Shown here: positions 146 to 15,235 of the stretch, one piece after another | Layout: every line of letters starts with the position of its first letter | Position numbering within the stretch: position 1 is the stretch's first letter | NCBI GenBank assembly: GCA_002753505.1 | Contig: PEAG01000003.1 | Location: forward strand, 1 to 64,000 | Direction of reading: 5' to 3' | DNA: 64,000 nucleotides | Source: Magnetococcales bacterium HCHbin5 | GTDB taxonomy: Bacteria; Pseudomonadota; Magnetococcia; Magnetococcales; Magnetaquicoccaceae | The notes under the pieces: model-generated | The model's database searches: none | What the model was told of the DNA's origin: nothing | What the model saw: only the letters and a program-made list of their open reading frames with translations | Translations under genes and position numbers: made by a program

Positions 146-3100
146 TCATCCATGCGAAGGAACCATTTCTGTTTGTATGTTATGACTGTTTTCATCAGGA
201 GGTGGGGGTGGTGGTGCCTCCTGGAAATAGTGGCCATCTTCATGGCCAGTGCCCGCTCCAGCCATGTTGCCTCCATCATGCTCGTCGGTTTGAGACAACC
301 ATTCTCCCTGGCTGGCAACTGCCCCGTGATCGTTGTGACCTTCATCTACAAAACTGTCCCAGGGACTACTGCCATGGTCGCCAAATCCATGCTGTCCGCC
401 ATCCATCTCGAACATTGCGCTTTCGTCCACATAGGCTCCGTGTGATACCAGTGCCTCGTCGCTACTGGAAAAATCATCACCATGACTGGTTCCCGGGTCA
501 AAATGGCCTGTCTCTGAAGGGTCGGTATCACTGGTTGTTTCTTCAGGCGCATGTTTGTCACCTCGCCCGCTGTGATAATCGGGCGTTCCGGCATGGTCCT
601 GGTTTTCTTGCGCGTGATTTTCCTGCTCTGTTTCTTTGCCTGCGGAGTCGGTATCACTGGTTGTTTCTTCAGGCGCATGTTTGTCACCTCGCCCGCTGTG
701 ATAATCGGGCGTTCCGGCATGGTCCTGATTTTCTTGTGCGTGATTTTCCTGCTCTGTTTCTTTGCCTGCGGAGTCGGTATCACTGGTTGTTTCTTCAGGC
801 GCATGTTTGTCACCTCGCCCGCTGTGATAATCGGGCGTTCCGGCATGGTCCTGATTTTCTTGTGCGTGATTTTCCTGCTCTGTTTCTTTGCCTGCGGAGT
901 CGGTATCACTGGTTGTTTCTTCAGGCGCATGTTTGTCACCTCGCCCGCTGTGATAATCGGGCGTTCCGGCATGGTCCTGGTTTTCTTGCGCGTGTTCTCC
1001 CCGCCCTATCCCCTTATCATGGTCAGAATTGGCTTGGTCATGATTGTCATCGGCCTTGTCATGGATATCGTCAGTTTTGCTATGCGATGCATCAGCTTTG
1101 CCATGCGCTTCATACACCTTACCGTGCGCATCATCGGCCTTGCCGTGTGATTCATCGGCTTTGCCATGCGCAGCATTGGCTTTGCCGTGGGTATCGTCAG
1201 TTCTACCGTGTGAATCTTCAGCCTTACTGTGTGACTCATCGGCTTTGCCGCGCACACCGTCCGCCTTGCCGTGGTCGTCACTGCTTTTAGTGTGTGCGTC
1301 GTCTACCTTGCCATGATCGCCGCCGGTTTTGCCATGCATATCATCAGTCTTGCCATGTGCATCATCAGTCTTGCCATGCGCGGCATCTGCATCTGCGCGC
1401 GCTGATTTTGCATCTGAGTCTGCCTGATCTGCTTTGTTGTGGGCGGCGTTGGCATCTGCATGCGCTGATTTTGCATCTGAGTCTGCCTGATCTGCTTTGT
1501 TGTGGGCGGCGTTGGCATCTGCATGCGCTGATTTTGCATCTGAGTCTGCTTGGTCAGCCAACTTGTGGTCAGCATCCGCTTGTTTGTGCGCGGCATCGGC
1601 CCTGGACTTGGCTGCGTCAAGATTAGCTTTGGCTTTCTCTAACTCTTCACCATGATTTTTTTCCCATCCCTTGGCTACACCTTTCGGTGCTTGCTCATTG
1701 CTCACTTTGTCAAAATTTTTCTGAGCATCTGCCAGATCTTTATCTGCCAATGCAGCTTTACTATCGGACGCATTCGCTCGTTTATGTGCGGAATCCGCAG
1801 CGGCATCTGCCTGGTGGGCCTTCTGGTCTGCCACGTTTGCCTGTTTATGTGCGGAATCCGCAGCGGCATCTGCCTGGTGGGCTTTTTGATCTGCCATATC
1901 TGCTTGTTTATGTGCGGAATCCGCAGCGGCATCTGCCTGGTGGGCTTTTTGATCTGCCATATCTGCTTGTTTATGTGCGGAATCCGCAGCGGCATCTGCT
2001 TGGTGGGTTTTCTGGTCTGCCACATCCGCCTGTATGGGAGTGAGGGGATCCATATCGTGATGCATATCTGTCGTAGCAGCGGAAGTTTCTACCGTGACAT
2101 GCGCGCCAGATACCGGTGTGCTGTCGGAAGACCCAACGCTGACAGGTGTACCTGATGCGGAGGTATGGGTGGCACCCTGTTCGGCAGCAGACTCTCCAGC
2201 AGAACGTTCGCCAGAAACAGGTGTATCAGCGGCAGGTGTACCGGATGCAGACATGTCAACAGCACCGGCTGGCGTACCTGAAGCGGAGGTATCGGTGGCC
2301 TCCTGTTCGGAAGCAGACTGTTCAGCAGAACGTTCACCAGAGGCAGGTGTATCAACGTCCGAGGCATCTGCAGCAGGTGCATCGGATGCCGGCGTGTCAA
2401 CAGTGCCCTCTGGTACACCTGAAGCAGGGGCATTGGCGGCAGGTTTGGCAGCCGGATCAACAGCAGTCGGTTCAGCAGACAATTCTCCCGTGACAGGCGC
2501 ACCAGATGGCGGTGTGCTGTCGGAAGAGCCAACGCTGGCAGGTGCAGCTGAAGCGGAGGTATCGGTAGCCTCCCGTTCGGAAGCAGACTGTTCAGCAGAA
2601 CGTTCACCAGAGGCAGGAGTACCAGCGTCAGAGGTATCAGCAGCCGGTGCATCAGATGTTGGCGCGTCAACAGTACCGGTTGGTGTACCTGAGGTGGAGG
2701 TATCGGTGGCCGGTTTGTCTGCTGGACCAGCAGCAGTTGGTTCAGCAGACAATTCTCCCGTGACAGGCGCACCAGATGGCGGTGTGCTGTCGGAAGAGCC
2801 AACGCTGGCAGGTGCAGCTGAAGCGGAGGTATCGGTGGCCTCCCGTTCGGAAGCAGACTGTTCAGCAGAACGTTCACCAGAGGCAGGAGTACCAGCGTCA
2901 GAGGTATCAGCAGCAGGTGCCTCGGACATAGGCGTTTCAGCAGTGCCGGATGGCACACCTGAAACGTATGTATCAGTGGCAGGTTCGGCACCCGAATCAG
3001 CGGCAGTCGGTTTGGCAGAGGGGCTTTCTGCGGTAGACAGATCGGTGGCAAATGCATCGGATGCCGATGTGTCAGCAGAAAAATTACCGCCAACGGGTGC

Positions 3101-3823
3101 GTCAGAAGCCGATGTTTTGGCATCCGGTCCGGAACTCTGACCAGCAGCGGTCGGTTCGGCAGCATATTCACCAGCAGCGGGCGCATCGAATGCAGGTGTA
3201 TCAGCAGAATGTCTACCGCCAGAGGGTTCGTCAGAAGCAGGTGTGTCGGCGGCCGATTCGGATGAGGATTGGAATAAAGATGCGACAGTGACAGGCGCAT
3301 CAGATGTGGATGCGGCGGCAGAAGAGGGTTCAGCAGCAGACGGCATATCCGTCATGTGGTGCGTATTCGTGCCATCCGGTGTGTGAGGCATGTTGGTTGC
3401 TGCAGGCTTGCCCACCAAATGGGACGGAGCATCGGTGACAGCAGACGCGGCGACAGTACTGTCCGTGAGAGGTGCCTCTGCTTTATCAACCAGATCCAAC
3501 CCACCAGCATCATGTTCTACCTCGTCTCGTTGATCGCCCATACCAGGGGTAACATGGGTATCATCCGACAGCGCAACCGATGGCAATTTCAAAGAGTCGA
3601 CCCCATGACCACTCTCCCCACTAACCTGAAAGTCGCCCATGGTGGACTCCCGTTTCAGATGAACATCGGTAGGGACGGCGGCAGGATCAAAACCGGGCAT
3701 CAATTCTGCTTGTACTCCGGCGTATTCCTTGGCAGAGAGGTCTGTTACGTCGGCATGTTGCAAAACGGTCAGCTGGTCGAGTTCATTCTGAAAATCGGGT
3801 GTAAGAGGGGTGGAATCAGCCAC
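146..3823 (-). CDS. Large acidic repetitive protein, candidate type I secretion substrate
   Basis: Not a family I can name. I chose the GTG start at 3823 because AAGGAG lies six bases upstream; the open frame continues 66 codons further up. The product is 1225 aa without hydrophobic segments. After a short unique head (residues 1 to about 230) comes a Ser/Thr/Ala/Pro/Asp-rich region with 90-residue and shorter repeats. Next are about four 21-residue units around ADQKAHQADAAADSAHK, then NKADQADSDAKSAHADA units. A run of seven-residue units of the type AHGKADD or SHGKADE follows, then nearly four 42-residue units containing HAQENQDHAGTPDYHSG. The last 130 residues are Gly/His/Asp-rich, with a run of six prolines. 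There is no N-terminal signal peptide and no RTX nonapeptide. Its gene faces a complete type I secretion locus, so export by that system is my inference. His and Asp in the repeats could bind metal; this is also inference. Confidence 0.8.
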   Translation of the reverse strand: MADSTPLTPDFQNELDQLTVLQHADVTDLSAKEYAGVQAELMPGFDPAAVPTDVHLKRESTMGDFQVSGESGHGVDSLKLPSVALSDDTHVTPGMGDQRDEVEHDAGGLDLVDKAEAPLTDSTVAASAVTDAPSHLVGKPAATNMPHTPDGTNTHHMTDMPSAAEPSSAAASTSDAPVTVASLFQSSSESAADTPASDEPSGGRHSADTPAFDAPAAGEYAAEPTAAGQSSGPDAKTSASDAPVGGNFSADTSASDAFATDLSTAESPSAKPTAADSGAEPATDTYVSGVPSGTAETPMSEAPAADTSDAGTPASGERSAEQSASEREATDTSASAAPASVGSSDSTPPSGAPVTGELSAEPTAAGPADKPATDTSTSGTPTGTVDAPTSDAPAADTSDAGTPASGERSAEQSASEREATDTSASAAPASVGSSDSTPPSGAPVTGELSAEPTAVDPAAKPAANAPASGVPEGTVDTPASDAPAADASDVDTPASGERSAEQSASEQEATDTSASGTPAGAVDMSASGTPAADTPVSGERSAGESAAEQGATHTSASGTPVSVGSSDSTPVSGAHVTVETSAATTDMHHDMDPLTPIQADVADQKTHQADAAADSAHKQADMADQKAHQADAAADSAHKQADMADQKAHQADAAADSAHKQANVADQKAHQADAAADSAHKRANASDSKAALADKDLADAQKNFDKVSNEQAPKGVAKGWEKNHGEELEKAKANLDAAKSRADAAHKQADADHKLADQADSDAKSAHADANAAHNKADQADSDAKSAHADANAAHNKADQADSDAKSARADADAAHGKTDDAHGKTDDMHGKTGGDHGKVDDAHTKSSDDHGKADGVRGKADESHSKAEDSHGRTDDTHGKANAAHGKADESHGKADDAHGKVYEAHGKADASHSKTDDIHDKADDNHDQANSDHDKGIGRGEHAQENQDHAGTPDYHSGRGDKHAPEETTSDTDSAGKETEQENHAQENQDHAGTPDYHSGRGDKHAPEETTSDTDSAGKETEQENHAQENQDHAGTPDYHSGRGDKHAPEETTSDTDSAGKETEQENHAQENQDHAGTPDYHSGRGDKHAPEETTSDTDPSETGHFDPGTSHGDDFSSSDEALVSHGAYVDESAMFEMDGGQHGFGDHGSSPWDSFVDEGHNDHGAVASQGEWLSQTDEHDGGNMAGAGTGHEDGHYFQEAPPPPPPDENSHNIQTEMVPSHG
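521..994. repeat. 126-bp tandem repeat, about 3.8 copies
   Basis: Units begin at 521, 647, 773 and 899, exactly 126 bases apart and nearly identical, and encode 42-residue repeats of the minus-strand protein. The period is a multiple of three, so the frame is kept when copies are gained or lost. The last copy diverges at about 995. Near identity indicates recent amplification. Confidence 0.95.
1401..1556. repeat. 63-bp tandem repeat, about 2.5 copies
   Basis: Units starting at 1401, 1464 and 1527 encode the 21-residue unit ADSDAKSAHADANAAHNK plus linker in the minus-strand repeat protein. Confidence 0.9.
1781..2033. repeat. 63-bp tandem repeat, about 4 copies
   Basis: Units at 1781, 1844, 1907 and 1970 encode 21-residue Ala/Asp/His/Lys-rich units in the minus-strand protein. 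This 63-bp family is distinct in sequence from the one at 1401. The heptad-like Ala spacing suggests helix or coiled coil. Confidence 0.9.
2471..2925. repeat. 270-bp repeat, about 1.7 copies
   Basis: The sequence from 2471 recurs from 2741 with few changes and encodes a 90-residue Ser/Thr/Ala/Pro-rich unit. Further degenerate units of the same kind lie on both sides, about 2130-3300. Confidence 0.85.
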
Positions 3824-4082: not shown

Positions 4083-5789
4083 ATGTCACCTATGTTGCTG
4101 TTGGATAAACTGGTCGCTCAAACCCGTTGGTACGAGAAGCTTGGCATCCTGCCGTTCAGTCGGCAAACCTTGCGGGATAGCCTGTTGGTGACCGCTACCA
4201 TCCATCTTCTCTCCCTGGCGGTGCCCATCACCCTCATGCAGGTCTATGATCGGATCCTGCCTAACGAGGCTGGCAGCACCCTGTTCTGGCTGGTGTTTGG
4301 AGCGGTCATAGCCCTGCTCATAGACGGTCTGCTGCGTTGGGCGCGCTTTGTGATCTCCGCCTGGAACACCGCCCGCTTTGAATATCTGATCGGCAGTGAC
4401 ACAGTCAGCAGGATTCTCTTCAGTCGCCTGGAGGATTTTGAAAAGAGCGGTATTGGTGTCCACCTGGACCGGTTGGGCAGCGTCTCCGGCCTGGGAAACT
4501 TTTATGCCGGACAGTTGCCCATGGTCCTTTTCGACATTCCGTTTGCAGCCATCTTTCTGGCTGCCATCTGGTATTTGGGGCACGGCATCGTCTTTTTCCC
4601 CCTGGCCATGGCAGGGCTCTATTTTTTGATTCTCCGCCATGCCCGGCAAAAATATGAAAAGGCCAAAATAGAGCAAATTGCCACCAATGACCGTCGTTTC
4701 AACTATATCATTGAGACCCTTTCCGGTCTGCATCTGGTCAAGGCGCAAACCCTGGAAGAACAGATGCTGAGACGCTACGAACGGTTGCAGGAGTCCACTG
4801 GAGAGGCCAACATGGAGATGAGTTATTGGAGTACCTTGCCCAACAATCTGTCGGGGGCTTTTTCCTACCTGACCATGTTCGGCCTCATCGCTGTGGGCAG
4901 CAGTTCCGTCATCTCCGGGGATCTCACTTTTGGTGGTATCACAGCCTGCACCATGCTGGCGGGTCGGGCCATGCAACCCATCCAGAATGCATTTGGCTTT
5001 TGGTTTCGCTTTGCGGATGTCAAGATTGCCTCCGACCGGCTCCGCTCCATTGCCGAATTGCGACAGGAAATTGCTGCTGACGTCCCTCCCTTTCCGGCAA
5101 ACATCGAAGGATCACTCTGCATGGAGGATCTCTCTTTCCGTTTTCAACCGGACCTGCCCTATATTTTTCATCATGCCCATCTGACAATTCCTCCCAAAAG
5201 CATGACGGTCATCCTGGGCAAAGGTTCGACAGGTACCACCACGCTCATGTACCTGTTGATGGGCACACTGAAACCGGAAAGCGGTCTGGTCCGCATTGAC
5301 GACTATAATCTGGCCGAATGGGATCATACGGATCCCCATGGCAGGCTGGCCTACCTGCCGGCCAATGGCACCCTTTTCAAGGGTTCCATCCTGGATAACA
5401 TCGCCATGTTCAATACCAACCATCATATGGCCGCTCTGGATGCAGCCGCCATGTTGGGACTGGATGAGCCCATAGCGGCCCTGCCCATGGGCTATGAGAC
5501 CCAGGTGGACAGCCAGGCTGCCAACTTTCTGCCCTCTGGGCTGATCCAGCGCATCTGTCTGGCCCGTGCCCTGGTGGTACGCCCCCGTATCCTGCTGCTG
5601 GACAAGACCAACGCAGCCATGGACCGGGAAAGTGAACAGATTTTTTTCTGGTTGATGAATCATTTGAAAGGCCGTTGTACCATTGTCATGGCCACGAATC
5701 ATCCCGAGCTGTTGGCCATGGCGGATCGGGTGTATGAAATACGGGACGGTGCCCTGGTGGCCGTAGAAGATCTTTTTGTTTTTCGCTAA
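4083..5789 (+). CDS. Type I secretion ABC transporter half with degenerate ATPase domain
   Basis: 568-aa inner-membrane ABC exporter half: transmembrane domain (about residues 30-320), then a nucleotide-binding domain. The ATPase motifs are eroded. Walker A reads GKGSTGTTT (379-387), so the Lys is Thr. The Q-loop Gln is Ala (YLPANG). The signature reads LPSGL (483-487) instead of LSGGQ. Walker B is LLLDK, with Lys508 in place of the catalytic Glu. The H-loop reads ATNH, with Asn at the His position. The membrane part is well preserved and the frame is intact, so it is probably a functional non-catalytic partner of the second ABC gene at 7195. It lacks the C39-like N-terminal domain found in that partner. 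An alternative start at 4092 has a slightly better ribosome site. Confidence 0.9.
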   Translation: MSPMLLLDKLVAQTRWYEKLGILPFSRQTLRDSLLVTATIHLLSLAVPITLMQVYDRILPNEAGSTLFWLVFGAVIALLIDGLLRWARFVISAWNTARFEYLIGSDTVSRILFSRLEDFEKSGIGVHLDRLGSVSGLGNFYAGQLPMVLFDIPFAAIFLAAIWYLGHGIVFFPLAMAGLYFLILRHARQKYEKAKIEQIATNDRRFNYIIETLSGLHLVKAQTLEEQMLRRYERLQESTGEANMEMSYWSTLPNNLSGAFSYLTMFGLIAVGSSSVISGDLTFGGITACTMLAGRAMQPIQNAFGFWFRFADVKIASDRLRSIAELRQEIAADVPPFPANIEGSLCMEDLSFRFQPDLPYIFHHAHLTIPPKSMTVILGKGSTGTTTLMYLLMGTLKPESGLVRIDDYNLAEWDHTDPHGRLAYLPANGTLFKGSILDNIAMFNTNHHMAALDAAAMLGLDEPIAALPMGYETQVDSQAANFLPSGLIQRICLARALVVRPRILLLDKTNAAMDRESEQIFFWLMNHLKGRCTIVMATNHPELLAMADRVYEIRDGALVAVEDLFVFR

Positions 5790-5813: not shown

Positions 5814-7178
5814 ATGAATCCCACCTCCAAAGCCCCCTCTGATCCTGCTCGTCAGGTCAGCCGTCCTTCCGCTGTTGCGACGCGAGACGACTTGTGGACC
5901 CGATGGGTCATGCAGACCGCCAAGGTATGGGAAGACATCGCCGGGATCATCAAAAAGACAGATGTGGAGCATATTGATACCGATCATAAAATTTTGACCG
6001 AGATTACCCTGGCCATCAACAATATTCTGGGACGGGAGGGCAGTTTTTCGCTGGAATGGGTAACAGAGCAAAACCGCGTGCTTGATCATTTGTATATCTT
6101 TGCCGAACATCATTTCCAGCGGGAAGAACGGATTATCGCCGACTATGACCTGCCCAATGCTGATTTACAAAAAGTACAGCACGAAAAATTTTTGGCCATG
6201 GTTCGCTCCAGCATCGATGATTTCCAGCATGGCCGCCTGACGGTAGGCATCAACCTGAAAAACCGTATTCTGGAGTGGTGGGTCAACCACATCAACCATC
6301 TGGATCACGACACCTTTTGCCGGGAAAACTGGGTCCAGGCACTGCTGAAAAAGGCTCTCACCTGGCAGGAATTGGCAGAGATCACCAAACCCAGCTACAT
6401 CGATGAGATTGATCAGGCACATCGATTCATGACGGAAATCACGCTTCAACTGCATGATTCCATCCTGGCCTCCGGGGGCCAGGAACGGATGATCGATCTG
6501 TTTCGGCAGATGGAGGCGTGTGCCGTTGCCCATTTCCAGGTTGAAGAGGAGATGATCCGTCGCCACTCCCTGCCCGGGTTGGAGTTTCAGCTGCAACAAC
6601 ACCAAAATTTTTTGCGGGAGTTGAAGGGGTATCTTGTCGAAATACAACAGGGTACGTTGCAGCCGAACCTGGTCCGCTACCAGTTGCTCAACTGGTGGAT
6701 TCACCACGTCAACAATGTGGATACCGGCTCCTTTGCCCTGGAACAATTGGCCGATCATATTTTACTGGTGGCCTCGACCTGGGAAGAGTTGTCCCCGTTT
6801 ATTCGCAGGATTGGCGTGGCCGTCATCGATGAGGAACACCGCACCATCACCGGATACATCATGGAGTTGAACCAGATGTTTGCCGCTCATGCCGGTGATA
6901 CCCGATTATATGCGTCTCTGCAGCAAAAATTTGACCAATTGATCTCCAGCACTCGACTCCATTTTGCCAGGGAGGAAAAAATCATGGCGGAACGCCAGTC
7001 GCAACTGGCCAAGCTCCACGTGGCGGAACATCACCATTTTCTCTCCATGGTACACTCCTACCAGGAGGGCTTTCTGGCTGGTCGACTCAATATGACCCGC
7101 AACCTGCAACGTCTGATGCTCATCTGGTGGGTCAATCATATCAGCCAGTATGATTATCCCACCTTTGGTACCCTCTGA
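5814..7178 (+). CDS. Triple-domain bacteriohemerythrin
   Basis: 454 aa with three consecutive hemerythrin four-helix domains, which normally bind O2 reversibly at a di-iron site. Domain 3 has the full ligand set: H342, H383, E387, H402, H406, H442, D447. Domain 1 has H58, H100, E104, H123, H159, D164 and domain 2 has H203, H240, E244, H263, H298, D303. In both, the first His of the HxxxH pair is Gln (Q119, Q259). Each domain closes with a conserved WW(V/I)xH motif. There is no signal peptide or membrane segment, so the protein is probably cytoplasmic. The gene sits between the two ABC halves of a type I secretion system, 24 bp after the first and 16 bp before the second. Co-expression, and possibly O2-linked control or O2 protection of secretion, is inferred. 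Confidence 0.93.
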   Translation: MNPTSKAPSDPARQVSRPSAVATRDDLWTRWVMQTAKVWEDIAGIIKKTDVEHIDTDHKILTEITLAINNILGREGSFSLEWVTEQNRVLDHLYIFAEHHFQREERIIADYDLPNADLQKVQHEKFLAMVRSSIDDFQHGRLTVGINLKNRILEWWVNHINHLDHDTFCRENWVQALLKKALTWQELAEITKPSYIDEIDQAHRFMTEITLQLHDSILASGGQERMIDLFRQMEACAVAHFQVEEEMIRRHSLPGLEFQLQQHQNFLRELKGYLVEIQQGTLQPNLVRYQLLNWWIHHVNNVDTGSFALEQLADHILLVASTWEELSPFIRRIGVAVIDEEHRTITGYIMELNQMFAAHAGDTRLYASLQQKFDQLISSTRLHFAREEKIMAERQSQLAKLHVAEHHHFLSMVHSYQEGFLAGRLNMTRNLQRLMLIWWVNHISQYDYPTFGTL

Positions 7179-7194: not shown

Positions 7195-9306
7195 ATGAAA
7201 CAGGCCCAACCACCGGCCCTGGCGGCCATCCGTTCAGGCAGTGATTTTGCGCGCTGCTTGGTTCCTTTGTTGGATGCGGTGGGATGGCGAGGTGATCAGA
7301 TCCATCTCCTGGAGGCTTTGCCTCATTTTCCGAATCAAATGGGATTGGTGGAGCTGCTCAACACCATGGCCAATCTCAAGTTTGAAGGAAAACCGCTCAC
7401 CGTTGACTTGCAGCATATGGACGCACGGTTGCTGCCCTGCCTCTTCGTTCCCAAGGGGGGGGGTGCTGCCCAGGTATTGGTGGCCCTGGGCGAAACCGCC
7501 TTTTTCAGCTTCGACGGTGCTACCGGGGAGTACACCCAGTTGTCCAAGGATCGGGCAACAGGAGTGGCCTATATTTTTCGGACGATGAAAAAAGGCTCGC
7601 AAACCTTGCAGCAACCCCAGCCCGATTGGTTCCAACGGGTTTTGACCCGCTTTACCCCCATTTTTATTCATGCCATTCTGGTCACGATCATCATCAGCCT
7701 GTTGACGATTGTTCCACCGCTCTTTGTCAAAGTCATTTTCGATACCATCCTGCTTTCCCGTTCCCAGGAAACATTAGCCTATCTGGCTGTAGGCATGTTT
7801 TTTTTCATCCTTGCCGATACCGGTTTCCGCTTTTTGCGGGTCAATCTGTTTCGCTATGTCAGTGTGCGATTGGGTCACATCATGGGCATTGAGGTGTTTC
7901 GTCGACTCCTTTTTTTGCCACCCTCGGCTACCGAGACCGCCAATCTGGGTTCCCAGGTGTCCCGGGTCAAGGATTTTGAATCCATACGGGAATTTTTCGC
8001 CGGACCGGCTGCCATTGCTCTGTTTGAATTGCCTTTTCTCTTTTTGTTGATCATTGCCCTGGCCATCATTGGCGGACCGGTTGCACTGGTTCCTCTGGGG
8101 ACCATGGTGCTTTTCGCCCTCTTTGGCATGGTCATGATGCCTGTCATCCACCGCACCAATGCCGTTGTAGCCCAGGCCGGGTCGGAACGACAGGCATTCA
8201 TCGTAGAGATGCTTGCCTCTTTGCGTGCCATCAAGCATACCGGTGCCATCCATCTCTGGAATAGCCGCTATCGCACCTTGGCTGCGGAGGCCGCCACTGC
8301 CACCTACGACTCGGCACGGTTGACCGGAGCGGTCAATGCCGTCTCCTATCTTCTGGTCATGTTGGGAGGGTTGGGTACGTTGGTCCTCTCCATTGAGCGC
8401 GTCATGGCGGGCAGCATGACCACCGGCGATCTGGTCGGGACCATGTTTATTGTTTGGCGCATCCTGGCACCCATCGGCAGCGGTTTCGGTGTGCTGACCC
8501 AGATTGGCCGTACCGAAAAAAGCATCGGGCAGATCAACCGCCTGATGTCCATTGCATTGGAGACCAAACAGGAGGCCAATGTGGCTGTCGACAAGGGACT
8601 GATGGGGCAGGTTGCCTTTTCCGGTGTCTCTTTGCGCTATGCCCCAGAGGCCCCCCCCGCCCTGTTGGGTGTGGAATTTGCCGTTGCACCCGGTGAAGTG
8701 ACGGTGGTGGTCGGTCATGACGGGGGAGGGAAGACGACCGTTCTCAAGCTTGTGCTGGGGTTGTACCACCCACAGGCTGGACGGGTGATCATCGACGATA
8801 CCAATGTGCGTCAGTTTGACCCCTTGGTGTTGCGCCGTTCGGTGGCCTACGCACCGAAACGCAACTATCTCTTCTACGGCACCATAGCCCAGAACATTGC
8901 ACTGGCCAATCCTGCGGCCTCGGAGGCCGCTGTGCTGCGAGCCGCCGAGCAGGCCATGGTGCTGGATGAAATTTTGGCCATGCCCAATGGATTGCAGACC
9001 CGCATCGGTGATCATAACGTCAACCAGTTGTCCGTCTCTTTCCAAAAACGCCTCTGTTTGGCCCGTGTCTTTCTGCGCAACTCCCAGATCGTTCTGCTGG
9101 ATGAACCGGAGTACGGCTTGTCGGAACCCCTGCAAGCCCAATTGTTGACCAGACTGGGGGGTATGAGAGGGGAGCATACCCTCTTTATTGCCACGCACCT
9201 GCCAAGTTTTTTCAGTATTGCGGACAAGGCGTTATGGCTGGAAAACGGTCGGGTGCGTGCCTGGGGCCCGGCGGATGCGGTCGCCCGGCTTTACAGCAAA
9301 AGATAA
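7195..9306 (+). CDS. Type I secretion ABC transporter, LapB-type with C39-like domain
   Basis: 703 aa. I chose ATG 7195 because GAAGGGG precedes it; an upstream in-frame start would overlap the hemerythrin gene. Residues 1 to about 130 resemble the inactive C39-peptidase-like domain of RTX and LapB exporters: no catalytic Cys/His/Asp set is visible. Residues about 155-440 form the membrane domain. In the ATPase domain Walker A is intact (GHDGGGKTT, from 507), Walker B is intact (VLLDEP, E637) and the H-loop His is present (ATHL). The signature is LSVSF (612-616) rather than LSGGQ, and the Q-loop Gln is Lys (YAPKRN). Probably heterodimerises with the degenerate half at 4083 and, with HlyD and TolC partners, exports a large protein. 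Confidence 0.92.
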   Translation: MKQAQPPALAAIRSGSDFARCLVPLLDAVGWRGDQIHLLEALPHFPNQMGLVELLNTMANLKFEGKPLTVDLQHMDARLLPCLFVPKGGGAAQVLVALGETAFFSFDGATGEYTQLSKDRATGVAYIFRTMKKGSQTLQQPQPDWFQRVLTRFTPIFIHAILVTIIISLLTIVPPLFVKVIFDTILLSRSQETLAYLAVGMFFFILADTGFRFLRVNLFRYVSVRLGHIMGIEVFRRLLFLPPSATETANLGSQVSRVKDFESIREFFAGPAAIALFELPFLFLLIIALAIIGGPVALVPLGTMVLFALFGMVMMPVIHRTNAVVAQAGSERQAFIVEMLASLRAIKHTGAIHLWNSRYRTLAAEAATATYDSARLTGAVNAVSYLLVMLGGLGTLVLSIERVMAGSMTTGDLVGTMFIVWRILAPIGSGFGVLTQIGRTEKSIGQINRLMSIALETKQEANVAVDKGLMGQVAFSGVSLRYAPEAPPALLGVEFAVAPGEVTVVVGHDGGGKTTVLKLVLGLYHPQAGRVIIDDTNVRQFDPLVLRRSVAYAPKRNYLFYGTIAQNIALANPAASEAAVLRAAEQAMVLDEILAMPNGLQTRIGDHNVNQLSVSFQKRLCLARVFLRNSQIVLLDEPEYGLSEPLQAQLLTRLGGMRGEHTLFIATHLPSFFSIADKALWLENGRVRAWGPADAVARLYSKR

Positions 9307-9321
9307 AGGAGCATCACGATC

Positions 9322-10647
9322 ATGTTTGATGCATTGCAGTCACGACATCTGTCCAAATCTGTGTTGCTTGAAGAGACGGGCAATCCGGTGCTGGTGCGTG
9401 CCGTTATCGGCTTTTCGGCAGTAATATTGCTTTGTTTTCTTTTATGGTCCGCTTTGACCTGGATAGACGAAGTCTCCACAGCCAGTGGGGAGATCATACC
9501 CACGGGGATGATCAAACAGGTACAACACCAGGAGGGGGGGACAGTTGCTGATATTCTGGTCAAGGAGGGAGAGCGCGTTACCGAAAACCAGCCTTTGATT
9601 CTGCTGGATTCCTACATGCCGCGTTCAGAACTGCGCGATGCCTATGCGCAGCGTGCCTTGTACACAGCCCAGCGGCGGCGGCTGCAGGCATTGCTGGAGG
9701 GCAGGGAGCCCACCTTTGACGCCACCCTTTTGAAACCGGCCTTTATTGCCGATGAGATGCGGCTGTTCCGGGAGATGGTTGCCAACCGGGAGCGGGAAGA
9801 GGCCATTGTTCAACAGCAACTGGAAAAACTGAAATCGGCACTGGCTGAACTCGAACAGCGGGAATCGACACTGAATGCTCAAAGCAAACTGATCGAAGAG
9901 GAGCTGCACATGCGCTCCACACTGCACAGCGGGGGAGACGGTTCCAAATTGGCTGTGCTGTTGGTGCAAAGACAGGCGAATGATAATCAAGGTGAACGGG
10001 CAACCATCCAGGAAAAAAAGGCACAGATCCGTCATGACATTGATGAGGCCGGATTCCGTTTGGCAAAGGTGGGTGGTGATGCGCGGGAAAAGGCCATGCT
10101 GGAGTTGGAGCGGGTGGAAAATGACGACAAGAAGACGATGGAGTTGATCAATCGCCTGGAGGAGCGCATTCGCCTGTTGGAAATTCGCGCCCCTATCACG
10201 GGGTTTGTCAACAACCTGAAAGCCCATACCATTGGCGGTGTCATTACCCGTAGCGATGTGTTGATGGAGATTGTCCCGGAGGGGTGGGAGCTGATTGCCG
10301 AGGTAAAAATCACTCCGAAAGATGTCGGCCATGTTCAACCCGGACAGTCGGTCAACATTAAATTTACCGCCTATGATTTTGCCCGGTACGGAGCCATTCC
10401 TGGCAAGTTGGAATCCGTTTCGGCATCCACGTTTTTGGACAAGGGTGGTGCCCCCTACTACAAGGGGTTTGTCCGCCTGGACCGCTCCCATGTCGGCGTC
10501 ACCCCCAACCGCAATGGGCTTGCCTTTGGTCCCATCATCATCGGCATGACCCTGCAGGCTGACATCATTACCGGCAGAAAAACGGTGTTGGAATATCTGC
10601 TCAAACCCATTTATGTATCGACCAGTCAGGCCATGCGGGAACGTTGA
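9322..10647 (+). CDS. HlyD-family type I secretion membrane fusion protein
   Basis: 441-aa periplasmic adaptor linking the ABC exporter to TolC. One transmembrane segment (about residues 25-46) follows a short cytoplasmic tail. A biotinyl-lipoyl-like half (about 60-95) comes next, then a long coiled coil (about 120-290) and a second lipoyl-like and beta-barrel part (about 295-420). AAGGAG lies about ten bases before the ATG. It starts 15 bp after the ABC gene, in the same operon. Confidence 0.93.
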   Translation: MFDALQSRHLSKSVLLEETGNPVLVRAVIGFSAVILLCFLLWSALTWIDEVSTASGEIIPTGMIKQVQHQEGGTVADILVKEGERVTENQPLILLDSYMPRSELRDAYAQRALYTAQRRRLQALLEGREPTFDATLLKPAFIADEMRLFREMVANREREEAIVQQQLEKLKSALAELEQRESTLNAQSKLIEEELHMRSTLHSGGDGSKLAVLLVQRQANDNQGERATIQEKKAQIRHDIDEAGFRLAKVGGDAREKAMLELERVENDDKKTMELINRLEERIRLLEIRAPITGFVNNLKAHTIGGVITRSDVLMEIVPEGWELIAEVKITPKDVGHVQPGQSVNIKFTAYDFARYGAIPGKLESVSASTFLDKGGAPYYKGFVRLDRSHVGVTPNRNGLAFGPIIIGMTLQADIITGRKTVLEYLLKPIYVSTSQAMRER

Positions 10648-10674: not shown

Positions 10675-11997
10675 TCATTGCGGGAGGAGCAACTCCTCCA
10701 GCGTCAACCGGCCGACGACCAACAGCATCTGGAATCGCGCCAACTCCAGGCTGTAGCGATTTTTGGCCAGGTTTGTCTGATTGGAAAACAGTTCGCGCTC
10801 GGAATCCAGCAGGTCCAGAGAGGTTCGGGTTCCCACCCGGAACTCTCGCTCCACCCCATCTCTGGCCATTTTGGCGGCCGCCACAATGCTGTTGAAGGAG
10901 GTGGTCAGTGCCTGACTGCTCTGAAGATCCAGGTAGGCCTTTTCTATCTCACGATAGGCTTGGCGACGCAACCGGTCCAACTCTGCCCATTGGGCATCCC
11001 GCCTGGCCTGGGCCTCTGCGGTTTTGGAAAGGGTCATGCCTCCGGAGTAGAGCGGCAGATCCATTCGCATCCCCAGGGTGTAGCTGTCTGCCTCTTCCTC
11101 AGTGGTTGAGACAACAGTGGTGCCCCCCTTCTGCCAGACGTGGCTGGCACCGGAGGAGAGCGACAGAGTCGGCCAGTGCCCGGCCTGTTCCTGTTTGATG
11201 GCTGATTCAGCCACAGACAATCGTTTGCTGGTCGCACGCATGTCGGGCCGTTGCTCCAGTTGTACCAGCCAGCTTTCCAGGGATCCCTCCCCGGGTGAAT
11301 GGCGGAATCTTGGCAGTGAAAGGCTCTCCCCAGCCGGTTTGCCCACGACCTCAAAAAATTGTGCCCTGGCGACAGCCAGGTCGTTATTCGCGCGGGTATG
11401 GTCCGCGTGTGCGGTGGCCAGCCGGGCCTCGGCCTGGCTGATATTGGTGCGGGTCAGTTCACCCACCCTGTGACGGGTTTGGGTAGAGGTCAGGTGCTGC
11501 TGCATCACCCGCTGGTTGTTTTCGGCCAGACGGACAATTTCCTTTGCCTGTAGGAGATCCACGGTCGCCTTCGCCACTTTAAAAAAAACCGTTTGCATCA
11601 CACCGTCCAGATCGTCTGCGGCGGCACCAATCCAGGGTACTGTCTGATCCAAGGCGATCAAGACTGGTCGATTGTACAACATTTGCGACAGTGTTGCCCC
11701 CACCACGACAGACTGCCCCGAAGTGCCTCCGCCCCGCCAGCTGCTGTGGCTGCTGTTGGGCGTAACATTCACAGCCAGATTGGGCATGAGCTCGGCTCGA
11801 CTTTGTGGCAGACGCTCCTGGGCGGCAACCAGCTTTGCCTGGGCTGCCTTGATCTCGGGATTGTGGTCCAGAGCATGGGTAAGTGCCTGGATGAAGGAAT
11901 CCGAGCCACCGGCTGCGGAACTGACAGGCAACAAGCAAACCGCCAATATGATGAAAGCATTTGATGTGATTGAGTTTTTCTTTAATATGCCTTCCAT
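10675..11997 (-). CDS. TolC-family outer-membrane efflux protein
   Basis: 440 aa with an N-terminal signal peptide (hydrophobic residues about 13-28). The duplicated helical pattern is typical of outer-membrane efflux proteins: ALDHNPEIKAAQAKL near the N-terminus and a matching RVGTRTSLDLLDSER near residue 390. It forms the outer-membrane channel of tripartite exporters. The gene converges on hlyD with a 27-bp gap, so it is transcribed separately. Its position makes it the probable outer-membrane partner of the type I system. Confidence 0.92.
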   Translation of the reverse strand: MEGILKKNSITSNAFIILAVCLLPVSSAAGGSDSFIQALTHALDHNPEIKAAQAKLVAAQERLPQSRAELMPNLAVNVTPNSSHSSWRGGGTSGQSVVVGATLSQMLYNRPVLIALDQTVPWIGAAADDLDGVMQTVFFKVAKATVDLLQAKEIVRLAENNQRVMQQHLTSTQTRHRVGELTRTNISQAEARLATAHADHTRANNDLAVARAQFFEVVGKPAGESLSLPRFRHSPGEGSLESWLVQLEQRPDMRATSKRLSVAESAIKQEQAGHWPTLSLSSGASHVWQKGGTTVVSTTEEEADSYTLGMRMDLPLYSGGMTLSKTAEAQARRDAQWAELDRLRRQAYREIEKAYLDLQSSQALTTSFNSIVAAAKMARDGVEREFRVGTRTSLDLLDSERELFSNQTNLAKNRYSLELARFQMLLVVGRLTLEELLLPQ

Positions 11998-12064: not shown

Positions 12065-12184
12065 GCATAAAACAAGCCAAATTATGCACTTCCTATCAAG
12101 CATGAAATCCTGCGCCAGCGTCTTTTTTGTCGGCAAGAGGGGGATCAGCTCTCAATTCGTTTTACTCTTCAATCCCATATGGAG

Positions 12185-12196
12185 TTGGTATATACT
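12185..12196 (+). promoter_or_regulatory. Possible extended -10 promoter of the Hsp70-like gene
   Basis: TTGGTATATACT contains TGG followed by TATATA, an extended -10 form, 93 bases before the ATG at 12290. No good -35 box is seen. The same 12 bases occur on the minus strand at 36362-36373, upstream of a REC-kinase gene. Confidence 0.3.
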
Positions 12197-12289
12197 CGGG
12201 CACTTCGCGTTGTGTTGTCCTTCCGCAACAGGTGGGGGAGGGGTCGGGAGGGGTGTTTTTTTAGGGATGTTCACGTCAGGGAGTGCGTC

Positions 12290-15235
12290 ATGAAGGTACA
12301 AAAGGTATGGGTGCGCCATGCCCACTTGTCGCCGGCGTTGCCAACGGAGGCTGATGGCAGTCTGGCAAAAGAGCAACGTTTGTTGCGGCAGGAAATTCTT
12401 GAGCTGTTGCTGCGCAAACGGTTTGTCCACTTTGTGCAACATCCCAACCTTGTTTTCGACAACAAATTGAATGCCATCTGGTGGTTGCAGGGCATTCCCG
12501 TGGCTTCAGGACAGATATACCAGCAGCTTTCCCGCCTTGCCGTTCATACCTTCAACCATTGGGAGTTGCCCACGACCGAGGAGCTGCTCTCCATCCGGCA
12601 GGAGCCGCTGGTTGCGCGCAATCCGCTGTTTCAGAACAGGCCACTCTATGCGACCTCCGTCGATCATACCCAACTCAACGAACAGATTGTTTCGGTGGGC
12701 GAACGGCCATTTCATGCCGGGATGGCTGCCGATGAGTCGCCGATAGAGGGGATGGTGATTCCCATTCACCGCATCTCCCAGCGCAGCATTTTTGAGTTTA
12801 TTGTCGCCCATGTGTTGTTTCCGGCTGGAATCGCCGGGGTGCAGAACAAGCTGAGCGCACTCTACAAACTGACCTTGGCCTTGCACAAGCAACGCCCGGG
12901 TGCGGCGGCTGCTCCGTCTCTCCCTTCGGTGCAACAATATCTCCTGGAGGGGGATTATGTGCGTGCCCGATTGCCCGTGTTGGAGGAGAGTTATCTGCAC
13001 GATACCCAGAAGGGGTTGTGGGAGCTGTACCAGCCCAAGCCCCCGTTGGGGAAAGACTGGCTGATGATTCCATTGCCGGAGGCGTGGGAGGCGCGCAACC
13101 CGGAGCGGGATGTGCGCAAGGGGGCGGTAGCCATTGATTTTGGTACCAGTTCCACCGTGGTGGCCTGCCGGGAGCAGGGCAAAACCACCCTGCTGCGGGT
13201 TGGCATCACCGATTTTTTCTGCAAGCCCAAGGCGGAGGATTATCAAAATCCCACCATCATGGAGTGGATCCATCTGCCCAATATTCTGGATGCCTGGAAT
13301 GCCGAGGCCTATCGGCCCATGGTGCGCTGGGATGATTTCCATTTTTCCCATGCGGCACTGGCCAGCTATCGGCAAAATGAGGCGGATCAGCGTATTGTTG
13401 CCAGTATCCTGACCGCCATCAAGCAGATACCGTTGCTGAACGATGGCCGGGACTATTCACTGCGCATCACCGACCAGAAGTCGGGTGCCGACATTGAATT
13501 GGGTACGGTCATGCCGCAGATGCCGGTCCATGGTCAGCGCATCTCCGTTTCTGTCAACGATCCCCTCGATCCCATTGAGTTGTACGCCTACTATCTGGGA
13601 TTGTTCATCAACAGCCGTTCCAACGGGCTGTTTTTGGAATATTACATGACCTTTCCGGTCACCTATCCGAAAAAGGTCAAGCGGCGCATTCTGGCCTCTT
13701 TTGCCCGAGGTCTCATGCGCAGTCTGCCGCAGGCGTTGATGGATTCGCCCCACATTCAGCGTTTTCTGGTCCGGGAAGAGGCCTCCGAGCCGACGGCCTA
13801 TGCGGCGTGTGCGTTGGGGGAGCTGAAGATCCAGCCAACGGAAGCGGGAACGGCCTTTGCTGTCTTCGATTTTGGGGGCGGCAGTACCGATTTTGACTTT
13901 GGCCTCTATCGATTGCCCACCGCCACCGAGGAGGAGCAGGGGTATGAGCATGTCATTGAGCATTTTGGTGCCAGCGGTGACATCTATCTGGGGGGAGAAA
14001 ATCTGGTACATCACATGGCCTTTCTGACCTTTGTCCATAATCTGGATATGTGCCGGGAGTTGCGGGTTTCCTTTACCGCCCCGCCCGAGGCGGAGCTGTT
14101 TGCCGGCCATGAAATGTTTATCGATCGCTCCCATACGGCCCAGGCCAATACCATCCTTCTGATGGCCAAGGTGCGTCATTTGTGGGAAAAATTTCAATGG
14201 TCATCCCCCAATGGGGCGGCTCACCCGCAACCTGCCTCGGGTCGGCGACAGACCGACATCATCGGCGATATTTTGCATCAGTCCATTCTGGACGCAGACT
14301 TTACCCTGGATCCCTCCCTGTCGGGATTTCCCGAGGCAGACAACAGGCTTGCCATCGAGATGGAGTTGTTGAATCGGCAACGGGAAAAGGTATCGGCCAC
14401 GCTGGTTGTGGATCGCAACGCCATCAACCGATTTTTGGTCAAACGGGTGGGCCGGGGCATTTATCAATTTTTTGTCGCCATGCACCAGGCCTTTACCCGT
14501 CGGGGGGCGTTGCCCCAGGAGGTTCACATCCTGCAGGCGGGCAACGCCAGTCAAGCTTCGCTGGTACAGGCCATTTTTGCCATGTTGCTGCAGCAAAACA
14601 TGTATCGCTGGCGGGCTCCAGAGGGGGAAGGGAACGACAATCCGGTCATGATTGCCATTCGCAAGACGCTGCCCATTCTGGACCCGTTGGCCGGTGTTCG
14701 CTTTATGGTGCATCGTCCGCCGGTGGGTGATCCCAACGATTTGTATCGTCCTACTGCCAAAACCGGGGTTGCCATTGGCCTGCTTAAACTGATTCCCGGT
14801 GAGAGTCTGCTCGCCTTGCATACGGCCAGCAAGCGTCGCCAAACACCCGACAAAGCGATCAGGGGGGTGGTGGCGGAGACCATTCAGGATGCGCCGTTCC
14901 ACTACTATGTCGGTCGTTTGAAGAGGGGTCGTTTTCAGCCGGTGCTGATGCAAAACGATCCTTATGGGGAGTGGCGGGAGTTGGGGTCGCCTACCCGGAG
15001 GGCCTTCACCCTGGTCTATTCCAGCTCGCCCCGGTCGGTTTTTGGCGAGTTGGAGCGGGGGGTATCGGAGTTGAGAGAGAAAACGGTGACCTTCAAGAGT
15101 GGGACAGAAAAAAAGCGGTTGTTTGTGCAGGCAGTGGCACCCGCAACGGTTGTAATCTGCCTGGCGGATTCTGTCGAGCAGGTGACGAAGCACTCTGTGG
15201 AGAGCTTGGTTCACATGGTGTTGGAGTTGACCTGA
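12290..15235 (+). CDS. Large Hsp70/actin-fold ATPase-domain protein
   Basis: 981 aa. The start was chosen at ATG 12290, preceded by GGGAG; the frame is open 37 codons further up. The first 280 residues match nothing I recognise. The rest has the actin/Hsp70 ATPase signature: phosphate-1 motif AIDFGTSSTVVA (D283) and phosphate-2 motif VFDFGGGSTDF (D527). Classical DnaK is about 640 aa with the ATPase at its N-terminus, so this is a different family. Its size recalls SrfB-type proteins, but I cannot confirm that. No signal peptide or membrane segment is seen. It appears monocistronic, convergent with topB (4 bp apart). Substrate and role are unknown. Confidence 0.8.
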   Translation: MKVQKVWVRHAHLSPALPTEADGSLAKEQRLLRQEILELLLRKRFVHFVQHPNLVFDNKLNAIWWLQGIPVASGQIYQQLSRLAVHTFNHWELPTTEELLSIRQEPLVARNPLFQNRPLYATSVDHTQLNEQIVSVGERPFHAGMAADESPIEGMVIPIHRISQRSIFEFIVAHVLFPAGIAGVQNKLSALYKLTLALHKQRPGAAAAPSLPSVQQYLLEGDYVRARLPVLEESYLHDTQKGLWELYQPKPPLGKDWLMIPLPEAWEARNPERDVRKGAVAIDFGTSSTVVACREQGKTTLLRVGITDFFCKPKAEDYQNPTIMEWIHLPNILDAWNAEAYRPMVRWDDFHFSHAALASYRQNEADQRIVASILTAIKQIPLLNDGRDYSLRITDQKSGADIELGTVMPQMPVHGQRISVSVNDPLDPIELYAYYLGLFINSRSNGLFLEYYMTFPVTYPKKVKRRILASFARGLMRSLPQALMDSPHIQRFLVREEASEPTAYAACALGELKIQPTEAGTAFAVFDFGGGSTDFDFGLYRLPTATEEEQGYEHVIEHFGASGDIYLGGENLVHHMAFLTFVHNLDMCRELRVSFTAPPEAELFAGHEMFIDRSHTAQANTILLMAKVRHLWEKFQWSSPNGAAHPQPASGRRQTDIIGDILHQSILDADFTLDPSLSGFPEADNRLAIEMELLNRQREKVSATLVVDRNAINRFLVKRVGRGIYQFFVAMHQAFTRRGALPQEVHILQAGNASQASLVQAIFAMLLQQNMYRWRAPEGEGNDNPVMIAIRKTLPILDPLAGVRFMVHRPPVGDPNDLYRPTAKTGVAIGLLKLIPGESLLALHTASKRRQTPDKAIRGVVAETIQDAPFHYYVGRLKRGRFQPVLMQNDPYGEWRELGSPTRRAFTLVYSSSPRSVFGELERGVSELREKTVTFKSGTEKKRLFVQAVAPATVVICLADSVEQVTKHSVESLVHMVLELT

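Follow-up and report, generated by a model that had tools for sequence, protein, structure and literature searches.

A multi-domain hemerythrin (Hr) is encoded between the two ABC transporter genes of a type I secretion system (T1SS) in the 64,000-nucleotide stretch of Magnetococcales bacterium HCHbin5 DNA analysed here (the window), and the same ABC1-Hr-ABC2 cassette recurs in 13 genomes besides this one, from at least three phyla. Judged by its catalytic motifs, the first transporter subunit (ABC1) is a pseudo-ATPase only in the Hr-containing systems, a feature missed by the original prediction that drew attention to the locus. We posit, at what we consider an even chance, that the multi-domain Hr serves a heteromeric T1SS exporter as its dedicated regulatory subunit, a cytosolic di-iron protein through which O2 or redox state would gate export. 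The genes concerned are as follows:

146..3823, minus strand: candidate secreted substrate, a divergently oriented repeat protein (1225 aa; repetitive, acidic and disordered-looking)
4083..5789, plus strand: ABC1, a half-size ABC exporter (TMD+NBD) with an apparently dead NBD (568 aa; Pfam PF00664 and PF00005)
5814..7178, plus strand: triple hemerythrin, Hr (454 aa, soluble; Pfam, NCBIfam, AlphaFold and ligand alignment)
7195..9306, plus strand: ABC2, an ABC exporter (703 aa; Pfam PF00664 and PF00005)
9322..10647, plus strand: HlyD-family membrane fusion protein (TIGR01843, 341 bits against a cut-off of 209)
10675..11997, minus strand: TolC-family outer membrane channel, convergent (TIGR01844, 277 bits against a cut-off of 225)

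The window thus holds the parts of a T1SS, an ABC exporter with TMD and NBD, HlyD and TolC, each above its profile cut-offs. Both ABC proteins exceed the cut-offs of PF00664 and PF00005 and have T1SS permease/ATPases as their nearest kin; against the LssB profile TIGR03375 they score 330 (ABC1) and 428 bits (ABC2), both under its cut-off of 693. ABC1 is without an N-terminal C39-like domain, and ABC2, whose gene is preceded by GGAAGGGG, carries ~140 extra N-terminal residues. The intergenic gaps are 24 bp (ABC1-Hr), 16 bp (Hr-ABC2) and 15 bp (ABC2-HlyD), and in G007, G037 and G043 the ABC1-Hr junction is an ATGA-type start/stop overlap, G774 being an exception with a gap of more than 150 bp. 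A promoter and terminator scan of the window operon, junctions included, returned matches at the level of shuffled sequence and gave no sign of separate Hr transcription. The gaps, the overlaps and the lack of above-chance junction promoters are in keeping with the original proposal that Hr is made with the exporter. Beside TolC lies a gene (12179-15235, plus strand) for a protein of 1018 aa to which neither Pfam nor NCBIfam gives a significant match.

The encoded Hr contains three hemerythrin domains (residues ~46-174, 192-312 and 330-452) and scores well above the profile cut-offs of TIGR02481 (172 against 51.8 bits), NF033749 (163 against 84) and PF01814 (61 against 25.3); the reading frame, domains and gaps on which the original prediction of a triple hemerythrin between two T1SS ABC halves was built were all verified. 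Structurally, the AlphaFold model (mean pLDDT 84.6, pTM 0.81) predicts three consecutive four-helix bundles, with helices at 52-167, 197-306 and 336-451, in keeping with assignment to the bacteriohemerythrin domain family (NF033749/TIGR02481). The best Foldseek matches in the PDB were a bacteriohemerythrin and sipunculid hemerythrins, each spanning one domain at a TMt of ~0.79 (0.79 for entry 4xpw), and a PDB sequence search returned single-domain hemerythrins only, with no multi-domain entry. Pfam and AlphaFold revealed no output domain fused to Hr within its 454 aa, the proposed partner being a separate protein, and none of the Hr proteins has a hydrophobic or transmembrane-like stretch; they should therefore be cytosolic. 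Elsewhere, the window genome is rich in Hr domains, with 14 PF01814 matches, and the abundance of hemerythrins in magnetotactic bacteria was remarked on in early surveys (PMC2556348).

The survey for Hr genes between paired T1SS ABC genes that had been suggested with the original prediction delimited a family of 14 members with three or four domains, all 14 encoded between ABC1 and ABC2, in eight Magnetococcales, one Magnetospirillum, three SAR324 and two Spirochaetota; the lack of conservation in relatives that would have counted against the original prediction was thus not seen. A protein search of 61 related genomes yielded seven further full-length relatives, every one between ABC1 and ABC2, and a scan of GTDB contigs added Magnetospirillum sp. 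SS-4 (L112), a SAR324 MAG (L113) and a Spirochaetales MAG (L120, genome G063), each with the ABC1-Hr-ABC2 order and HlyD. G645, G774 and G795 came from profile searches covering 398 Pseudomonadota, 345 Spirochaetota and 52 SAR324 genomes and 55 from the Magnetospirillum family, with gene order unchanged; Pseudomonadota and Spirochaetota were sampled, most of the genomes are MAGs, and several loci stop at contig edges. The family is discrete, its lowest member scoring 572 bits and the next match 122 bits in the search of the 398 Pseudomonadota. Around these loci, a second canonical single-domain hemerythrin in G037 (L041:8159-8749; 196 aa, PF01814 at 49 bits) stops 2 bp before ABC1, giving that operon five Hr domains over two proteins, and two hybrid histidine kinases that are homologous to each other (34% across ~800 aa, a span that takes in the sensor part), possibly a common regulator, lie upstream of the cassette in SAR324 (L113:1947-4766) and Magnetococcales (L045:309-2738). 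Two Spirochaetota contigs (L166 and L167) bear tandem arrays of at least four single-domain hemerythrin genes away from any ABC pair. A link to magnetotaxis was considered and set aside: most hosts come from lineages that include magnetotactic bacteria, but the two Spirochaetota break the pattern.

In the window protein the di-iron ligands are H58/H100/E104/Q119/H123/H159/D164 in domain 1, H203/H240/E244/Q259/H263/H298/D303 in domain 2 and H342/H383/E387/H402/H406/H442/D447 in domain 3; only domain 3 has the full seven-ligand set H-HxxxE-HxxxH-HxxxxD, the first His of HxxxH being Gln in domains 1 and 2. Across the 48 domains of the 14 proteins, six ligand positions out of seven never vary except in G795, where two His are gone from domain 1 and one from domain 3. 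The seventh, the first His of HxxxH, has been replaced by Gln in 32 domains and is retained in 16. Domain 1 has Gln there in 14/14 proteins, while no protein lacks His at this position in all its domains; the domain that keeps it is usually the last (13/14, the exception being G062, with His in domain 2). A stricter rule that only the last domain keeps His was rejected, given G062 and the His residues in both domains 2 and 3 of G063 and G795, as was the idea that the Gln variant is unique to the family, since it occurs in 8 of 55 other Hr domains of the sampled genomes, although it is clearly enriched here. We infer from these ligand patterns that most of the Hr domains bind iron, with at least one canonical-type domain per protein and others of altered reactivity.

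The same data bear on the main rival to a regulatory subunit, a structural or assembly subunit in which a string of four-helix bundles stabilises the ABC1/ABC2 heterodimer or handles cytosolic disordered cargo, with the iron structural and O2 playing no part. The linkage evidence fits it equally, gene adjacency being compatible with other dedicated roles such as assembly or chaperoning; the number of Hr domains varies from three to four, as in scaffold repeats; and the prevalent Gln variant may alter O2 chemistry. We nonetheless regard a purely structural role as unlikely, if the most serious alternative, because the iron ligands are invariant far beyond the neighbouring residues, in an alignment whose mean column identity is 48%, and a His at the variable position is retained somewhere in every protein.

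Less probable still is a general role in O2 buffering, delivery or protection, with Hr merely co-transcribed with the operon. Bacteriohemerythrins act in this way elsewhere, and the genome has its many other Hr domains, but such a hitchhiker would occur elsewhere in some genome, and no family member without the exporter was found among the genomes searched. The reciprocal search agrees: with the ABC1 profile alone, strong matches in SAR324 and Spirochaetota came only from the same five genomes that carry the Hr cassette. The 14/14 linkage and this reciprocal co-occurrence make chance adjacency unlikely and, with the start/stop overlaps and junctions lacking promoters above chance, strongly support a functional link between Hr and exporter.

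What the exporter carries is suggested by the divergent repeat-protein gene, whose start we reset to GTG at 3823, after AAGGAG. Its product has repeats rich in Ala, Asp and Ser and no folded Pfam domain, and opens with the N-terminal motif ELDQLTVLQHADVTDLSAKE; at positions 521-994 the gene contains a near-identical 126-bp tandem repeat (3.8 copies, 98%), which suggests recent copy-number change. An N-terminus of this type is found in a gene beside the exporter at eight other Hr loci (G030, Magnetospirillum, G062, G007, G001, G037, G041 and G795), and weaker forms occur in G645 and G063, so that a motif-bearing gene for a disordered repeat protein adjoins 9/14 loci, or 11/14 with the weak forms. 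None is present on the contigs of G043 and G026, both short and ending near the locus, and none was seen near the G774 locus. The motif also opens the neighbouring protein of four ABC pairs that have no Hr (L078, L088, L089 and L090), in a form, LDxxTVLxxVxxxDLxAxE, that has no Pfam or NCBIfam match and might serve as a secretion, retention or recognition signal; in L088 it is followed by a bacterial cadherin-like domain. The motif therefore seems to mark cargo of paired-ABC T1SSs generally, and from adjacency and the common N-terminus the motif-bearing repeat protein is the likely cargo of the Hr-linked system. The readable part of the cargo at Hr loci, read to the end only in the window, is of low complexity. 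Iron-loading of the cargo was rejected: the window protein is His-rich (74 of 1225 residues), but most others are not (2 of 397 in L113), and the suggestion made originally that Hr supplies O2 or iron chemistry to the substrate finds no support, the likely substrates sharing no metal-binding character. Could Hr itself be the cargo? Genes for T1SS cargo commonly adjoin the transporter genes, which would suit the position of Hr, but its gene sits inside the transporter pair with start/stop overlaps, and its products do not begin with the motif seen in the neighbouring repeat proteins and stop shortly after the last helix with no common tail, which makes this reading very improbable.

The second line of evidence is the state of the ABC subunits. 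In the window, the ABC1 NBD has a Walker A reading GKGSTGTTT, a catalytic Glu replaced by Lys (LLLDKTNAAMD), an LPSGL signature and an Asn in the H-loop; ABC2 has an intact Walker A (GHDGGGKTT) and Walker B (LLDEPE) with a degenerate signature (LSVSF). None of the 14 Hr-linked ABC1s has the catalytic Glu behind Walker B, which has become Lys or Arg in 13 of them and Asn in G063. Thirteen lack the Walker A Lys, and G063 keeps Lys-Ser without the Walker A glycines. No H-loop His remains, and the signature resembles LPSG at best. ABC1 homologues from loci that have no Hr keep the Walker A Lys and the DE in 28/28, so that NBD decay stands at 14/14 against 0/28 (Fisher test, p = 7e-11, using 25 of the 28), a contrast that corresponds to one clade and hence to one event. 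Of the Hr-linked ABC2s assessed, only that of G063 has lost the Walker A Lys, and most still have the catalytic Glu (exceptions G063 and G645); the D-loop usually has another residue in place of Asp, and an H-loop His survives only in the window, G062, G774 and G795, whereas ABC2s from Hr-less loci keep it. As for a scheme with one degenerate site, ABC2 contributes mostly intact Walker A and B motifs, the partner signature in ABC1 is LPSG-like, and most ABC2s have lost the H-loop. From the dead ABC1 NBD and the weakened ABC2 motifs, at most one ATP site should work in the pair. In the Spirochaetales locus, catalytic residues are lost from both ABC1 (L120:6338-8005) and ABC2 (L120:9253-11364; Walker A GHEGSGTSS, Walker B DK). 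With weak D-loops and H-loops in ABC2 generally, and neither Walker A Lys nor catalytic Glu in that of G063, the pump's own ATPase activity is uncertain. That the pair is a sensor or channel and no pump, with ABC1 (in some lineages ABC2) signalling the state of Hr, would accommodate the catalytic loss in 14/14 ABC1s and in both G063 subunits as well as the missing H-loops in most Hr-linked ABC2s, but it is the least probable reading of all, as most loci retain HlyD and a cargo-like gene alongside and most ABC2s have Walker A and B intact.

Evolutionarily, a 45-row tree unites the 14 Hr-linked ABC1s in a single clade (support 100/100), within which the window ABC1 groups with G030, of another family, and Magnetospirillum, and not with its genus mate G001; this points to a single origin of the cassette and later transfer as one unit. 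The place of the two Spirochaetota rows inside the clade is uncertain, as their branches are very long. Pairwise identities across loci correlate closely (r = 0.88 for Hr-ABC1, 0.90 for Hr-ABC2 and 0.97 for ABC1-ABC2; Mantel p<=2e-4 for the correlation of ABC1 and Hr divergence). Paired ABC1/ABC2 exporters that have no Hr, or have both ABCs fused, are common in Magnetococcales. Such Hr-less pairs (e.g. L081 and L088-L090) have homologous ABC1, ABC2 and HlyD in unchanged order, and those of L078 and L088-L090 share the cargo N-terminal motif with the Hr loci; they differ in having no hemerythrin and an ABC1 whose Walker A and B are intact and whose C-terminus is often extended by a disordered Pro/Ala tail. 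Long, disordered Pro/Ala/Lys-rich tails occur in the Hr-less ABC1s of L086, L091-L093, L095 and others. A sensor domain fused to ABC1 in these relatives was considered, but the tails (~330 aa in L093, ~530 aa in L091) are of low complexity and contain no fused equivalent of Hr.

Among known systems, the LapB/LssB-type T1SSs of giant adhesins are the closest, TIGR03375 being the best NCBIfam match of both ABCs, and they share HlyD, TolC and a long repeat-protein cargo; the Hr system differs in its two different ABCs with the Hr gene between them, its apparently dead ABC1 NBD and profile scores below the cut-off. The cargo motif, as far as is known, is distinct from the LapA retention module as well. 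Heterodimeric ABC exporters such as TAP, MRP1 and CFTR are likewise asymmetric pairs with one non-canonical nucleotide site (PMC7756269), but Hr-linked ABC1s usually lack both the Walker A Lys and the catalytic Glu, and both signatures are altered. In the bacterial sensors DcrH, Bhr-DGC and Bhr-HD-GYP, an Hr domain of similar fold and ligands is also tied to a functional partner, though by fusion to the output, where here a separate protein of three or four domains is tied to an exporter (PMC9388753). P1B-5-ATPases likewise carry a hemerythrin-like domain on a membrane transport ATPase, but they are P-type metal transporters with a single fused domain and the ligand motif H-HxxxE-HxE-HxxxxD (PMC9388753). 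A search of the open-licence literature for Hr with type I secretion, HlyB/HlyD or a heteromeric T1SS found no such description, in agreement with the original remark that no role in type I secretion was known.

Mechanistically, we envisage that ABC1, as a pseudo-ATPase, and ABC2, with the only plausible ATP site, would form an inner-membrane pump that, with HlyD and TolC, would export the long disordered repeat protein bearing the N-terminal ELDxxTVL...DLxAxE motif. Hr, made in step with the two ABC subunits, would bind the pump from the cytosol, the dead ABC1 NBD being the most likely site. O2 or redox would then switch the di-iron sites of Hr from deoxy to met, and export would be permitted or blocked in consequence. 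The coincidence of Hr with catalytic loss in ABC1 suggests that the ABC1 NBD may have become a regulatory platform, and gating by O2, as originally suggested, would fit the invariance of the di-iron ligands and, by analogy, the behaviour of known Hr sensors, in which the redox state of the di-iron site alters partner activity; a second precedent is the Hr-like domain that P1B-5-ATPases carry (PMC9388753). Counting against this regulatory reading are the weakening of the ABC2 motifs too, an NBD contrast that amounts to one event, and the ligand losses in G795. The fullest version, in which an obligate multi-domain di-iron subunit docked on the pseudo-ATPase half gates disordered-protein export by O2 or redox, making this the first O2/redox-regulated T1SS, is accordingly a more tentative proposition, conceivable at somewhat less than even chances.

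To our knowledge, type I exporters are usually seen as substrate-triggered pumps without a dedicated soluble subunit, and the roles of bacterial hemerythrins are often unclear. If the regulatory reading is true, a strictly linked mobile cassette that joins a di-iron protein to an exporter half of the pseudo-ATPase kind would bring protein secretion under post-translational O2/redox control, and hemerythrins would gain a concrete, testable partner. Where the regulator acts is predicted by the co-occurrence of Hr with an ABC1 that has lost its active site. The recurrence of the cassette in unrelated bacteria, always with one pump half lacking its ATP site, suggests a secretion machine with a built-in O2/redox regulator.
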